Shown here: one piece after another, positions 9,292 through 15,142 of the stretch
Numbering within the stretch: the first letter of the stretch is position 1
Layout of the letters: each line of letters starts with the position of its first letter
Assembly: GCA_012735215.1 (NCBI GenBank)
Contig: JAAYHX010000019.1
Coordinates: 1-55,886 of the forward strand
DNA from: Tissierellia bacterium
Lineage (GTDB): Bacteria; Bacillota; Clostridia; Tissierellales; Tepidimicrobiaceae
Direction: 5' to 3'
Length of the DNA stretch: 55,886 bases
Translations under genes and position numbers: made by a program
The notes under the pieces: generated by a model
Told to the model about the DNA's origin: nothing
Databases searched by the model: none
Seen by the model: only the letters and a program-made list of their open reading frames with translations

Positions 9292-9319
9292 AGGCTCCCT
9301 ACTTAATAAGAGGGAGCCT
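9292..9319. terminator. bidirectional terminator
   Basis: A 9-bp perfect GC-rich stem AGGCTCCCT (9292-9300) pairs with 9311-9319. The T-run is better on the minus strand (GTCTTTTAC), for phoR; its right arm overlaps the phoR stop codon. It also lies 20 bases after the aminotransferase. Confidence 0.7.
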
Positions 9320-10385
9320 AAACTTTTCTTATGGGTATTTTTACTTGTATTTCAGTGCCCTTACCTACTTGACTCTTTAAGGATATATTACCATTGTGAT
9401 ACTTGACTATATGCTTTACAATGGAGAGTCCTAAACCAGAACCACCTAATTTTTTTGACCGACTTTTATCAACCATGTAGAACCTTTCAAATACCTTATC
9501 CTGTTCTTCCTCAGGTATCCCAATTCCCGTATCCTTAACCTCTATTACACAGTAATTGTCCTCTTCCATTATATGGACTTCAACCTTACCCCTTGGTTTG
9601 TTGTATTTTATTGCATTATCAACTAAGTTGTATAGAAGGTCTTTAATCATCCGCCTATTTCCCAATATGGACACGGATTGGTCTGAGTAAACTAACTCAA
9701 TGCTCTTGATTTCTGCCTTTATCCTTAGATGGGATATTACTTCCTTGGCTATATCAGATATATTTATTAATTCCATTTCTTGGTCATGGCTTTGGCTTTC
9801 TATCCTGGAAAGATTGATGATGGAATCTATTAGCTCCAGTAGCCGCATGCCTTCTCTGTGTATTATATTGGCAAATTTGATTGTATCTTCCCTACTAACC
9901 TTTCCAGTGGCAATCATTTCAGCAAAACCGTTTATTGATGTTAGTGGGGTTTTTAGCTCATGACTTACATTTGCAGTAAAATCCCTTCTATATCTTTCTG
10001 CTTTTTTCAGTTCAGAAATATAGTTTTCAATTTCTACCCTCTGATTTTGTATGGTTTTTAAGAAGGGTTCCAATTCTTCATATACATCTATATGCTTTAC
10101 TTCATTACCTGATAATATACTATGGATATTTTCTGCAGCTATATAGATGGGGCTAATTATTTTGTTGGTCAAAATATGGGCTACCATATATAAGACTATC
10201 AATATGAAGACTAATATGCCTATAGTGACAGGAATTATGAACAGGATTTTGGCGGTAATGTCGTAGTTATTATATCCAATATCAGAATAGTATATATCAA
10301 AAAAAAGCCATGCAACAACACTAGATGTTATAATTGCAGTTATGGTAGCAACCATAGCTAAGCTAAAGTATATTCTTTTTTCCAT
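9318..10385 (-). CDS. phoR: sensor histidine kinase, PhoR type
   Basis: A 355-residue membrane kinase. Two membrane helices (about 8-28 and 46-70) bracket a short outside loop of under 20 residues, so there is no large sensor domain. The HisKA box FTANVSHELKTPLTS carries His142. ATP-binding motifs: N box with Asn257, DTGIGI 285-290, GGSGLGL 314-320. It follows phoP by 2 bases in the pst-phoU-phoPR operon, so it should report phosphate status, probably through the Pst transporter and PhoU rather than by direct outside sensing. ATG follows GGGGGA. Confidence 0.9.
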   Translation of the reverse strand: MEKRIYFSLAMVATITAIITSSVVAWLFFDIYYSDIGYNNYDITAKILFIIPVTIGILVFILIVLYMVAHILTNKIISPIYIAAENIHSILSGNEVKHIDVYEELEPFLKTIQNQRVEIENYISELKKAERYRRDFTANVSHELKTPLTSINGFAEMIATGKVSREDTIKFANIIHREGMRLLELIDSIINLSRIESQSHDQEMELINISDIAKEVISHLRIKAEIKSIELVYSDQSVSILGNRRMIKDLLYNLVDNAIKYNKPRGKVEVHIMEEDNYCVIEVKDTGIGIPEEEQDKVFERFYMVDKSRSKKLGGSGLGLSIVKHIVKYHNGNISLKSQVGKGTEIQVKIPIRKV

Positions 10386-10387
10386 AG

Positions 10388-11053
10388 CTAATCCCCCAAT
10401 TTATAACCGACATTTCTAACAGTTTGGATATACTTTCCTGCCTCTCCTAGTTTCAGCCTTAAGGTCCTAATATGAACATCTATGGTTCTAGTCTCTCCTT
10501 CAAAGTCAAATCCCCATATTTCATTCATTATCTTATTCCTTGACAGGACTATTCCTTGGTTTTTCATAAGATAATATAATAATTCAAACTCCTTATGGGT
10601 CAAGGATACTTCCTTTTGGTTGACCAAGACTAAGTACTTATCATAGTCAAGGACAATGTTTTTGAAAGTTAATTGCTTGGATGTTTTTCCTCTATTGCTT
10701 CTTCTTAGGACTGCCTTGACCCTTGATATGAGTTCCAATATGCCAAAGGGCTTTGCAATATAATCATCTGCTCCCATATCCAATCCTTTTACCTTATCAA
10801 ATTCACTAGTTTTAGCCGTTAGCATGATGACAGGAATATCTCCAGTCATGGTATTGGATTTTAGCCTTTCTAGTATGGAGTATCCATCTTCCCCTGGCAG
10901 CATTATATCCAGTATTATTAAATCAGGATGAGGAGCAGTAAAGAGCTCCTTGCTACTTTCAAAACCCTTGGCTTTAAAGCCGTTGTTCTTTAGTGCATAA
11001 ACAACCAATTCCCTTATATCCTCATCATCTTCAACACAGTAGATTAAAGGCAT
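10388..11053 (-). CDS. phoP: response regulator, PhoP/OmpR type
   Basis: A 221-residue response regulator. The receiver (1-118) has the acidic pair Asp9/Asp10, phospho-acceptor Asp49 in LIILDIMLPG, Thr79 and Lys81. The C-terminal OmpR/PhoB winged helix (about 125-221) ends with RTLRLKLGEAGKYIQTVRNVGYKL. It lies between phoU (11-base gap) and phoR (2-base gap). It is the likely binder of the repeats upstream of pstS (15098-15142), giving an autoregulated operon. Confidence 0.92.
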   Translation of the reverse strand: MPLIYCVEDDEDIRELVVYALKNNGFKAKGFESSKELFTAPHPDLIILDIMLPGEDGYSILERLKSNTMTGDIPVIMLTAKTSEFDKVKGLDMGADDYIAKPFGILELISRVKAVLRRSNRGKTSKQLTFKNIVLDYDKYLVLVNQKEVSLTHKEFELLYYLMKNQGIVLSRNKIMNEIWGFDFEGETRTIDVHIRTLRLKLGEAGKYIQTVRNVGYKLGD

Positions 11054-11064
11054 ACCATCAGCTC

Positions 11065-11721
11065 CTAGTATACGTAGTGTTCACCTGTTATTGCATAATA
11101 TACCCATTCGGCAATGTTTTGAGCATGATCTCCAATTCTTTCAAAATATTTTGCTATCATCAATAGGTCTACTACCTGTTCTTTATGTTCAATGTTCTCT
11201 CTGACAATATCAACTAGTTCATTTTTAATTATATCAAAAAGGTCATCTACCTGGTCATCCATATGGATGACCTTTTTAACAAGATCTATATCTCTTTTTA
11301 CAAAGGAGTCTATGCTGTATTTTACCATCTTTATTGTAATCTCTGCCATTTGAGGTATATGAACTATATCCTTTATATAGGGTTCGCCTGCCATCATTAT
11401 TGTTATTTCAGAGATATCAGCTGCTTGGTCGCCTATTCTCTCCATATCTGTAATCATCTTTAGGGCAGAAGAAATAAACCTTAAATCCTTTGCAACAGGT
11501 TGTTGCCTTAATAGGAGTTTCAAACATCTCTCTTCTATTTCCTTTTCCATATCATCTATTTCATTGTCAGCTTCTATGACCCTTTTTGCCAATTCAACAT
11601 TTTGTTCCTTTAATGCTGATACAGCAGCATTTATTGAGCTTTCAATTAGGTTGCCCATTTCAATCAGCATGTCATTGAGTAAATCCAATTCTCTATCAAA
11701 TCCACTTCTCACCCTTATCAC
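11065..11721 (-). CDS. phoU: phosphate signalling protein PhoU
   Basis: A 218-residue all-helical protein with two PhoU repeats: the first around DNEIDDMEKEIEERCL and the second around DDQVDDLFDIIKNEL, each with the metal-binding acidic E/DxxxD pattern. PhoU links the Pst transporter to the PhoR kinase and lowers signalling when phosphate is plentiful. It starts 11 bases after pstB. Length is normal for the family. Confidence 0.95.
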   Translation of the reverse strand: MIRVRSGFDRELDLLNDMLIEMGNLIESSINAAVSALKEQNVELAKRVIEADNEIDDMEKEIEERCLKLLLRQQPVAKDLRFISSALKMITDMERIGDQAADISEITIMMAGEPYIKDIVHIPQMAEITIKMVKYSIDSFVKRDIDLVKKVIHMDDQVDDLFDIIKNELVDIVRENIEHKEQVVDLLMIAKYFERIGDHAQNIAEWVYYAITGEHYVY

Positions 11722-11732
11722 CTCACTATTAT

Positions 11733-12494
11733 TTAACCAAATCTACCAGTAATATAGTCCTCAGTACGCTTATCCTTTGGAACTGAGAATATATCTTCAG
11801 TTTTATCGTATTCCACCAAGTCTCCCTTCAACATGAAGGCTGTGTAATCAGATACTCTGGCAGCCTGTTGCATATTGTGGGTTACTATTACTATTGTATA
11901 ATCCCTTTTTAATTCCTCAATAAGCTCCTCAATTTTTGCAGTTGATATAGGATCCAGAGCAGAGGTTGGTTCATCCATTAACAATACTTCTGGTTCTACT
12001 GCTAAGGCTCTAGCTATACAGATTCTCTGCTGCTGTCCACCAGATATTCTTAAAGCATTTTTTTTGAGATTATCCTTTACCTCATCCCAAATGGCTGCCA
12101 ACCTAAGGCTTCTTTCTACAATTTCATCTAGCCTTTTTTTGTCTCTTATGCCATGGACCCTAGGGCCATAGGCTATATTATCATATATACTTATGGGAAA
12201 GGGATTTGGTCTTTGAAATACCATACCAACTCTTTTTCGAAGTAGGTTTACATCAAAGTCTTCTCCATATATATCTTTTCCATCTAGCAGTATATTCCCT
12301 TCTATTCTTAGACCTTCAATTAAATCGTTCATGCGATTTAAACTCTTTAGCAGTGTAGATTTACCACATCCTGAAGGGCCAATTATTGCAGTTATATATT
12401 TTTCTTTAATCTTCATATTTATATTTTTCAAAGCATGGAAATCACCATAGTACAAATCCATGTCTTTTATAACGATCTTATCCTTTCTATTCAT
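11733..12494 (-). CDS. pstB: phosphate ABC transporter ATP-binding protein PstB
   Basis: A 253-residue ABC ATPase that powers phosphate import. Walker [10 protein letters not shown] (39-47), Q-loop VFQRPNPFP, signature SGGQQ (151-155), Walker B VLLMDE (170-175) and H-loop His206 are all present. QRPNPFP is typical of PstB. Two ATGs are adjacent (12497 and 12494); the ribosome site AAGGGGAG lies 2 and 5 bases before them, so 12494 is slightly favoured. The start overlaps the end of pstA, indicating translational coupling. Confidence 0.95.
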
Positions 12495-13305
12495 CATTAC
12501 TCCCCTTTGCTAATTTATTGCTTAATAATGTGGAAACATAGTTTATAATCAATACTACAGCCAACAGTATAACTCCTGTTGCATAGGATTCATTAATATG
12601 CATTCCTTCAGTAGACAGAATATACATGTGAAGGGCCAGAGTACGGCCTGAGGAAAACAATCCTTCTGGTATCTTTGTGGCAGTACCTAGAGTAAACATG
12701 AGGGCTGCAGTTTCCCCTACAATACGGCCTATGGAAAGGATAACTCCTGATAGTATTCCAGGCATGGCAGAAGGCAACACTATTTTAAATATTGTATATA
12801 GCATACCTGCCCCAAGGGCAAAGCTTCCTTCTCTGAGGGAATCGTCTACAGATAGCAAGGCTTCTTCAGTAGCCCGTATTATCAAAGGTAGTACCATTAT
12901 TCCCACAGTCAATGTGCCAGCTAGGAGTGAGTATTGAAAATTCAGATATACTACAAAGAATAGCATACCAAAAAGTCCATAAACAATAGAAGGTATTCCG
13001 GATAGGGTTTCTGTTGCTATCCTGATAACCTCTACCAACCTATTACCTTTTTTAGCGTATTCTACCAGGTAAAAGCCAGTAAATACTCCTATGGGAGTGG
13101 CAATTATCAGGGTAAGGAATACGAGCATTAAGGTAGTAATCATGGCAGGAAATAAGGACACATTTTCTGTAGTATATTCCAAATGAAATAGTGATGGACT
13201 TAAATTTGGAATACCCCTAACTAAGATATATCCAATTATGAAAAAAAGCACACCAAAGGTAATATATGCTGATAGTTTTACAACGGATTTTAACAACCTA
13301 CTCAA
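12487..13305 (-). CDS. pstA: phosphate ABC transporter permease PstA
   Basis: A 272-residue permease with about six membrane helices. The cytoplasmic EAA loop is [20 protein letters not shown], and the family motif [13 protein letters not shown] lies in the middle. It pairs with PstC to form the phosphate channel. The start is TTG at 13305, with AAGGAGG 7 bases upstream; it overlaps the end of pstC by 8 bases. No ATG is better placed. Confidence 0.94.
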
Positions 13306-14161
13306 GATTAGTCCTCCTTTTTACCACTAAAAATGCACCGTTTATGATCAATATGAATACAAATAGTACTGCAGCAGTTGCAATTAAAGCTTCCCTGTGG
13401 GCATCGGCAGCATAGGCCATTTCGATTACTATATTTGTGGTTAATGTTCTAACTCCTTTTGTTATACCTACTGGCATGCGGGCCTGATTACCTGCCACTA
13501 GGATTACCGCCATAGTTTCTCCTATAGCCCGGCCTATGGCAAGAATTATGCTGGAAATTATACCTGATTTGGCTGCAGGTACCACAACAGAAAAGATAGA
13601 CTTTTCATGGGTGGCTCCTAGGGCTATACTTCCTTCATAATAGCTATTTGGAACAGCCCTGATGGCAGCCTCGGACATGCTTATGACTGTAGGTAGTATC
13701 ATTATTCCAAGAAGTAAGGAAGCCGTTATTACATTCATACCTGTTCCGCCAAATACATCTCTTATAATTGGAACTATGACCACAAGGGCAAAAAAGCCGT
13801 ATACTATTGAAGGAATCCCTGCCATCAGGTTGATTCCTGGTTTCAAGAATCTATATAACCTTTTACTGGAAAACTTTGCAAGATATATAGCAGTTAGTAA
13901 ACCAATAGGAACACCAATGATAACGGCTCCCAAGGTTACATAGATGGAACCCAGTATCATTGGCAGTATTCCAAAGGATTGAGGGATGTTACTAGGCTTC
14001 CATTCAGTCCCAAGAAGGAAGTTTTTAAATCCATATTCTTGAATAAAGGGGATTCCTCCAGCAAATATGAATATGCACATAAGAAGGATTGCTATAATGG
14101 ACGTTACTGCACATATTAGGAAGATTCCCTTCATAAAGCTTTCAGTAAAGTTCCCTTTCAT
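13298..14161 (-). CDS. pstC: phosphate ABC transporter permease PstC
   Basis: A 287-residue permease with six predicted membrane helices. It carries the PstC motif [17 protein letters not shown] and an EAA loop SEAAIRAVPNSYYEGSIALGA. With PstA it forms the inner-membrane pore for phosphate. It starts 15 bases after pstS, with GGTGGTG before the ATG. Reading is complete and in normal length. Confidence 0.94.
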   Translation of the reverse strand: MKGNFTESFMKGIFLICAVTSIIAILLMCIFIFAGGIPFIQEYGFKNFLLGTEWKPSNIPQSFGILPMILGSIYVTLGAVIIGVPIGLLTAIYLAKFSSKRLYRFLKPGINLMAGIPSIVYGFFALVVIVPIIRDVFGGTGMNVITASLLLGIMILPTVISMSEAAIRAVPNSYYEGSIALGATHEKSIFSVVVPAAKSGIISSIILAIGRAIGETMAVILVAGNQARMPVGITKGVRTLTTNIVIEMAYAADAHREALIATAAVLFVFILIINGAFLVVKRRTNLE

Positions 14162-14176
14162 ATTTACACCACCACT

Positions 14177-15052
14177 CTATTCTATTACTTCATTCCATTC
14201 AGTTATTTCACCAACATAGATTGATTTGATTTGTTCCAAAGATAGATCTTCTACAGGATTGTTATTGTTTACAATTACTGCTATACCATCCATTGCAATA
14301 GCTTGTGCTGTAAGTTCAGCTAATTCTGATTCTTTAAGCTCTCTAGAAGCCATACCTATATCAGCAGTGCCTTCTATGGCAGCTTGCATACCTGCTGATG
14401 AACCTGTAGATTGAATTTCTATTGTAACCTTTGGATAAATTTCCTTGTATGCTTGAACTAATTCTTCCATAACTGGAGTCACTGATGTAGAACCTGCAAT
14501 TACTAAAGTTCCTTCCAATTCTTTTCCTCTTTCATAATTGGTCAGATCAGTACCAACTTGTACATAACCAGCATTAACAACTATATCTTGACCTTCAGTA
14601 CTTAATATGAAGTTTATGAAGTCTTCAGCAAGTGGATTTAAATCTCCCTTATAGGCTATATTAAAGGGTCTTGAAATCTTATAGGATTTATTTTGAACAT
14701 TTTCTGCTGTAGCTTCTACTCCATCAATCTTTACAGCCTTTACATTTTCATTAAGAGAACCTAAGGATATATATCCTATGCTATATTCATCTCCGGTTAC
14801 TGAAGTCATGACAGCATCTGTACTGTTTTGCACAATTGCTTCAACATAAGTCCTATCGTTTATTTCTCCATTTTCTCCTCCTTCTAGAATACCAACTATT
14901 TCAGTAAAGGCTCCCCTAGTACCTGAACCATCTTCTCTTGTTATGACATTTATTGTTCTACTGCTGTTGAATTCTACGCCATTATCTGTACTACAACCTA
15001 CTATACTCATGATCATGATTGTTATTATTGTTAAGCCAAATAGTTTTTTCAT
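14177..15052 (-). CDS. pstS: phosphate-binding lipoprotein PstS, circularly permuted
   Basis: A 291-residue lipoprotein: signal MKKLFGLTIITIMIMSIVGC with lipidated Cys20. It should bind phosphate outside the membrane for PstCAB. All PstS motifs are present but in swapped order. REDGSGTRGAF (39-49) and the FILSTEGQDIVVNAGYV segment (148-164), normally C-terminal, come first. GSTSV (187-191), TGSSAG (216-221), ASREL (235-239) and GEITEWNEV (281-289), normally N-terminal, come last, and the protein ends where the canonical chain would pass into the REDGSGTR half. The order therefore looks like a circular permutation, with the old ends joined at about 165-182. Each half occurs once and the frame is clean, so it is not a duplication or break. 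Confidence 0.9.
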   Translation of the reverse strand: MKKLFGLTIITIMIMSIVGCSTDNGVEFNSSRTINVITREDGSGTRGAFTEIVGILEGGENGEINDRTYVEAIVQNSTDAVMTSVTGDEYSIGYISLGSLNENVKAVKIDGVEATAENVQNKSYKISRPFNIAYKGDLNPLAEDFINFILSTEGQDIVVNAGYVQVGTDLTNYERGKELEGTLVIAGSTSVTPVMEELVQAYKEIYPKVTIEIQSTGSSAGMQAAIEGTADIGMASRELKESELAELTAQAIAMDGIAVIVNNNNPVEDLSLEQIKSIYVGEITEWNEVIE

Positions 15053-15080: not shown

Positions 15081-15142
15081 ATTATAGTTTAAATGGCTTA
15101 TGTAAAATCCGTTATGGGGATTATGTAAAATTTATGTAAAAC
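15081..15142 (-). promoter_or_regulatory. PhoP-box repeats and promoter of the pst operon
   Basis: On the minus strand the unit TTTTACATAA occurs at 15142-15132, 15131-15121 and 15108-15098, spaced 11 and 23 bases (about one and two helical turns), with a weaker copy between. This matches the PhoP-box layout of TTNACA-like repeats with an 11-bp period known in Bacillus. The -10 TATAAT is at 15086-15081, so the promoter-proximal repeat occupies the -35 region, as for PhoP-activated promoters. Confidence 0.78.

Follow-up and report, generated by a model that had tools for sequence, protein, structure and literature searches.

On the reverse strand of the window, by which we mean the whole stretch of 55,886 nucleotides that was analysed, lies a pst gene cluster headed by pstS (14177..15052, -), an ATG-started gene whose product of 291 aa was identified by translation, profile matches, phmmer searches and a structural model as a circularly permuted, putative phosphate-binding lipoprotein. 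It is followed by two permease genes with BPD_transp_1 domains, designated pstC (13298..14161, -) and pstA (12487..13305, -) from their place in the operon, by the ATPase gene pstB (11733..12497, -), by phoU (11065..11721, -) and by genes for a PhoP/PnpR-like response regulator with winged-helix output (10388..11053, -) and a PhoR/PnpS-like sensor histidine kinase named from sequence alone (9318..10385, -). The earlier sequence-only reading, according to which the gene heads an intact pst operon, is borne out by this arrangement. Upstream of pstS, 71 bases before the start codon, the Pho-box-like sequence TTTACA-N5-TTTACA is present without mismatch (15124..15140, -); it is the sole exact match in the window, and its arrangement is that of the pneumococcal Pho-box given in PMC4913102. 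The number of such sites with at most one mismatch, three in the window as compared to 0.97 expected, is weak evidence because three or more were found in 11 of 100 shuffles.

No second PstS was found among the PBP_like_2 matches in the window's own genome, which is 98.96% complete. Apart from pstS, one further gene has a strong PBP_like_2 match; its product corresponds to TupA and it adjoins genes for an ABC permease and an ATPase. A weak match of 24.6 bits (G000:C5:179962-180327, -) lies below the cut-off. Since PHO4-type and Na/Pi-type transporters are also encoded in this genome, phosphate may enter the cell by routes other than Pst.

Domain order and fold of the window PstS

The protein begins with a lipoprotein signal peptide (residues 1-20; 14993..15052, -), read from the translation and ending in I-V-G-Cys20, of which Cys20 is taken by us, following the usual lipobox rule, to be the lipobox cysteine; in the model, pLDDT is below 50 at residues 1-11, 13-17 and 19-21. 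Then comes the former second half (residues 30-170; 14543..14965, -; delimited by phmmer and the model), which extends from REDGSGTR (39-46) to the old C-terminus and includes FILSTEGQ. A linker (about residues 166-180; 14513..14557, -; located by comparison of homologues) bridges the former C- and N-termini, and the former first half (residues 177-291; 14180..14524, -; phmmer and model) carries GSTSV, GSSAG, ASREL, the hinge strand and GEITEWNEV (281-289), two residues after which the translated chain stops at its new C-terminus. The motifs thus run from the signal through REDGSGTR, FILSTEGQ, the linker, GSTSV, GSSAG and ASREL to GEITEWNEV, whereas an ordinary PstS starts with the GSTSV group. 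Each half occurs once, with none missing and none doubled. The sequence-only reading had claimed that every landmark is present once, that the halves are swapped, that the chain ends at the REDGSGTR boundary and that a lipoprotein signal precedes the former second half; recounting of positions 39-46 and 281-289 on the translation, and the succession of Cys20 and the REDGSGTR half, agree with it in each of these respects.

Profile and sequence searches gave the same picture. The score against NCBIfam TIGR02136 was 209.9 bits, above the cut-off of 206.6 for this phosphate subfamily, but the halves do not stand in the canonical N-to-C order, so the protein is a permuted variant and not a standard TIGR02136 member. 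Both Pfam PBP_like_2 and TIGR02136 match it in two stretches of reversed order, the best stretch (181-288 and 176-289, respectively) corresponding to the N-terminal half of the profile. With phmmer, canonical 4q8r was hit in two swapped pieces (query 183-289 on 6-113 and query 33-165 on 119-244), while 4h1x was hit in a single piece (29-289, E 8e-72); of the five top-scoring proteins of known structure, four (4q8r, 4gd5, 1twy and 4exl) matched in two swapped pieces and 4h1x alone in one. Canonical TIGR02136-type PstS proteins such as those of Clostridium perfringens (4Q8R) and the phosphate-bound 4GD5 are highly similar to the window protein in both halves and have the same site motifs, but their halves are arranged in the opposite order and they match the model over only about half its length.

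An AlphaFold2 model was calculated from a 44-row alignment, in which the window protein was combined with 43 of the 80 named-genome loci, and had a mean pLDDT of 91.3 and a pTM of 0.82. 4H1X superposed on it end to end (32-290 on 35-291; 257 residues, Z 37.0, rmsd 1.3 A), whereas the canonical structures 1twy, 4gd5, 4q8r, 4n13 and 4omb matched only model residues of about 26-172. Model residues 28-167 align with residues 144-276 of canonical 4gd5 and model residues 180-291 with residues 5-118 of canonical 9l8j, and such complementary half matches are the outcome that circular permutation requires. Moreover, 4pqj matched model residues 178-256, and canonical 4exl_C spanned 28-240, a wider range than the other half matches, with 135 residues aligned. 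The title of PDB entry 9l8j mentions an 'evolutionary hotspot'. The model thus does not show the canonical topology named in the sequence-only reading as contrary evidence, and, apart from the position of one half, the modelled fold appears to be that of canonical PstS.

Lobe boundaries are reported for a SAR11 PstS in PMC12421899, and these served as a guide for assigning the hinge. On this basis, model strands 248-262 and 127-134 would be the two hinge crossings, lobe I would now be continuous (about 135-255), and lobe II would consist of two segments (about 30-126 and 264-291) and bear both termini together with the lipid anchor. As judged from the type II fold, the cut would lie inside lobe II beside the hinge, so that whole lobes have not been swapped.

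With respect to the ligand, GSTSV, GSSAG, ASR and REDGSGTR of the window protein, motifs contributed by both lobes, align with those of phosphate-bound 4gd5, and R39, G42, S43, G44, T45, S188, S218 and R237, which presumably line the phosphate site, are invariant in the 44-row alignment. Binding and import of phosphate are predicted by analogy with pneumococcal Pst2. PBP_like_2 also includes tungstate binders; it is nevertheless very unlikely that the protein, with its fold retained, has a different oxyanion as its ligand or acts as a sensor instead of a transporter subunit, given the TIGR02136 score, the motifs shared with 4gd5 and the fact that phoU and the Pho-box-like site adjoin pstS. Taken together, we assign a probability of roughly 0.87 to the reading that the window encodes a naturally circularly permuted phosphate-binding lipoprotein of a Pst ABC importer. 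Having kept the flytrap fold and the phosphate-site motifs, it would catch phosphate outside the cell and pass it on to PstCA as an ordinary PstS does.

The structure 4H1X is that of SP_2084, PstS2 of Streptococcus pneumoniae TIGR4, released in 2012 and deposited as a phosphate-binding protein. It shares the domain order of the window PstS and is collinear with it over the mature chain at 48% identity. The identification of this permuted protein with the PstS2 of the published pneumococcal work is based on the PDB molecule name and the locus tag. According to PMC4913102, the pneumococcal Pst2 system is active and capsulated cells need either pst1 or pst2, although at low phosphate a pst2 mutant took up phosphate at a rate resembling that of its parent and Pst1 was the main contributor. 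In the same paper no Pho-box was found before pst2, whereas a Pho-box-like site is present before the window pstS.

Among binding proteins of the type II fold, circular permutation has been described for the glycine-betaine-binding proteins, by comparison of OpuAC from Bacillus subtilis (2B4L) with ProX, in PMC2395249. 2B4L matched model residues 27-277 (220 residues, Z 9.2, rmsd 4.9, 10% identity). OpuAC belongs to a different ligand family, and its permutation was presumably an event separate from that of PstS.

Distribution of the permuted order

Open reading frames (ORFs) were classed by the order in which two HMMs, one for the canonical N-terminal half (A) and one for the C-terminal half (B), matched. 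The 291 classified ORFs comprised 214 permuted ones (195 distinct), 71 canonical ones, five tandems of the order A-B-A-B and one fragment, figures that do not represent prevalences because sampling was led by permuted queries. A permuted, collinear ORF was found in at least 14 of 398 genomes of a phylum-wide sample, not counting two tandem carriers, and in at least 77 of 150 genomes sampled from the window's order, including at least 11 of the 20 from its own family; the order-level count leaves out G473, where a contig end cuts the gene, the frame-broken G538 and three tandem carriers. For the Lactobacillales, the order of Aerococcus kribbianus, the number was at least 51 of 198 genomes, excluding G726 and G659, in each of which a single stop interrupts the gene, and G652 (gene split over contigs). 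The single in-frame stops in the permuted pstS of G726 and G659 may mark decaying genes. All 80 loci kept from named genomes, which are part of a larger candidate set, have a permuted ORF, and their carriers include Peptoniphilus, Anaerococcus, Intestinimonas, Dorea, Coprococcus comes, Ruminococcus bromii, Granulicatella, Aerococcus and Desemzia. In 66 of the named loci the downstream sequence extends for 4.2 kb or more, and pstC-pstA-pstB come next in 64 of these, the exceptions being L097, with two permease labels in reversed order and overlapping frames, and L033, where none of the three is seen; where less than 4.2 kb was available, pstC was the first gene in 14 of 14.

The permuted ORFs end at the same domain boundary in 213 of 214 cases, 0-5 residues past it. 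An aromatic residue in the linker was detected in 209 of 214 permuted ORFs (196 of 198 in an earlier set), before the A half in none of 58 canonical ORFs and at two of five tandem junctions, using a pattern that was devised after the sequences had been seen; a first, too short pattern had matched 2 of 198 and was replaced. The five misses are the genes of L166 and L265, each of which is in the set twice, and L270, a member of the main clade in which the tyrosine falls outside the pattern by a single residue.

The search for same-order homologues suggested in the sequence-only reading thus revealed a clade-wide form, present in many separately assembled genomes and in one solved structure, which means that it is not peculiar to the genome of the window. 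For the same reason, it is hardly conceivable that an ordinary pstS gene was rearranged internally during assembly or sequencing, an explanation in favour of which nothing was found: 195 distinct sequences from many genomes have the identical order and cut, the permuted homologues have a linker in common and the crystallised 4H1X has the same order. The permuted order is therefore not an assembly error.

Several individual loci deviate from the common pattern. Permuted PstS is found in bins titled as non-Bacillota, namely L042 and L062 (Helicobacteraceae) and L103 (Treponema), the last of which nests with Lachnospiraceae rows in a quick tree, pointing to mis-binning or horizontal transfer. The proteins of L215 (G690) and L216 (G740) have acidic, repeat-rich linkers of 48 and 89 residues, as compared to 4-8 in most others, and N-terminal regions without cysteine. 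Two neighbouring permuted paralogues, one of each pair strongly diverged, are encoded at L079 (490-1419 and 4956-5846, +) and at L167 (ORFs of 315 and 321 aa, -).

Tandem fusions and the probable route to the permuted order

The five tandem ORFs (L014, L015, L163, L164 and L165) encode fused PstS-PstS proteins of 531-586 aa from stop to stop, with 73-86% identity between units. They span three families (f131, f146 and f148), require three changes on the PstS tree and head complete pst operons in the two cases checked (L262 and L263); they are possibly two-site phosphate binders. Like the permuted proteins, they hold a B-A junction within one chain, but both of their ends are canonical and they are about twice as long. 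The fused-pair junction of L163, LIPVNSSDSEAKEYSGTVEVVGSTS, resembles the permuted linker; on the PstS tree, the tandem proteins, including the L163 lineage, are not direct sisters of the main permuted clade.

We consider it most likely that the permuted order arose by tandem duplication. An in-frame duplication of pstS would have produced A-B-A-B, and loss of the first A behind the retained signal peptide, together with the last B, would have left the permuted B-A. The original N- and C-termini, which both belong to lobe I, would thereby have been joined via a short linker and new termini opened between the GEITEWNEV helix and the strand leading to REDGSGTR, so that lobe I would have become one continuous segment and lobe II discontinuous, with the lipid anchor hanging from lobe II. 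The first step, a tandem fusion, does happen, as is shown by complete pst operons that begin with a gene for a double PstS protein. No half-way form of the order A-B-A or B-A-B was found among the 291 classified ORFs, and the duplication route is for this reason only inferred. Splitting of pstS into two genes and their re-fusion in the other order would give an identical product and would fit the lack of a half-way duplicate among these ORFs, but is improbable in our view: the half genes noticed incidentally were restricted to the frame-broken L171 and to G652, whose gene extends over two contigs, while in-frame tandem fusions occur in three families.

Number of origins and implications

In a PstS tree of 57 hand-chosen rows, built after the halves had been brought into canonical order, one clade (98/91) comprised 23 of the 25 permuted rows; L016 was placed just outside this main permuted clade and L166 among the canonical rows. 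L166 (G515) has a relative of 66% identity, L265, in G999 from another family. In a tree of 54 rows containing L166, L265 and 12 further canonical rows, the pair was found inside a canonical clade (99/95, 99/96 and 99/98). With p values of 0.073 and 0.105, however, approximately unbiased (AU) tests on PstS alone were not significant against a single origin. A PstC-A-B tree was computed without outgroup from 36 usable operons of 39 given, L301, L307 and L308 lacking the permease pair, with L063, L067, L260 and L304 entered without PstB. Here, the L166/L265 pair joined the six operons of the same canonical clade (100/99), all 20 remaining permuted operons fell into one group (100/100), and one origin was rejected by the AU test (p 0.0039 with the mixture model, 0.030 with LG+G4). 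PstA, measured from stop to stop, has 425 and 431 aa in the L166/L265 operons and 374-418 aa in those of their canonical clade-mates, as compared to 272-352 aa in other operons. A type of pst operon with a long PstA (374-431 aa), observed at L259 (G515), L293 (G999) and L294-L299, includes the second permuted lineage.

Two further candidates for independent origins, L016 and the first ORF of L079, were discarded; on a quick tree, each had a long branch outside the main clade. On a careful tree, the L079 ORF was inside it. L016, despite its position just outside that clade on PstS, is not counted as a third origin because its operon, L260, falls within the permuted clade on PstCAB and because it has the main-clade linker. 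The motif GGSTSVEK was likewise abandoned as a mark of the second lineage, similar motifs being present in other permuted proteins.

From these results it is likely that PstS was permuted twice independently at the same site, a founding event having given rise to a large clade in the Bacillota and a second permutation at the same place to a small one. Two origins are supported by the position of the pair in both the PstS and the PstC-A-B trees, with which PstA length and the linker aromatic agree. The alternative of a single event, in which the L166/L265 pair would belong to the main clade but, evolving fast, be attracted to the canonical rows, or would have an operon patched by recombination, is in accordance with the AU results on PstS, with the long stem of the pair (1.31) and with the identical cut in both lineages. 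However, PstS and PstC-A-B data both nest the pair in the same canonical clade, the AU test on PstCAB speaks against one origin also with the simpler model, the PstA of the pair is long like that of its canonical clade-mates and the aromatic of the main clade is absent from its linker; we therefore regard a single origin as unlikely, though less so than the split and re-fusion considered above.

No report of a permuted PstS was found among the titles and abstract openings retrieved from an open-access library, and the string 'permut' was absent from the main texts of the phosphate-transport papers checked. The permuted form is present in sequence and structure databases, with a crystal structure since 2012, yet seems to have gone unremarked. 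It is common in several Gram-positive groups and probably has at least two origins. As a whole, it is rather more probable than not, though less firmly so than the two origins taken by themselves, that two or more independent permutations of PstS took place at one and the same near-hinge spot, that the double-PstS starting point recurs, that the anchor was transferred each time from the first lobe to the second and that the main form, still unnamed, is the sole PstS of genomes like that of the window.

If this holds true, the site would be one of a very small number of positions at which a flytrap protein that works with PstCA can be cut; alternatively, tethering by lobe II may itself be favoured in some Gram-positive envelopes. 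Annotation that is blind to domain order gives both forms of PstS the same name, and models of PstS docking to PstCA derived from canonical complexes would place the anchor on the other lobe. Permuted PstS, the living tandem fusions and the probable second origin together offer a natural experiment on the route of permutation and on the lobe that carries the tether.
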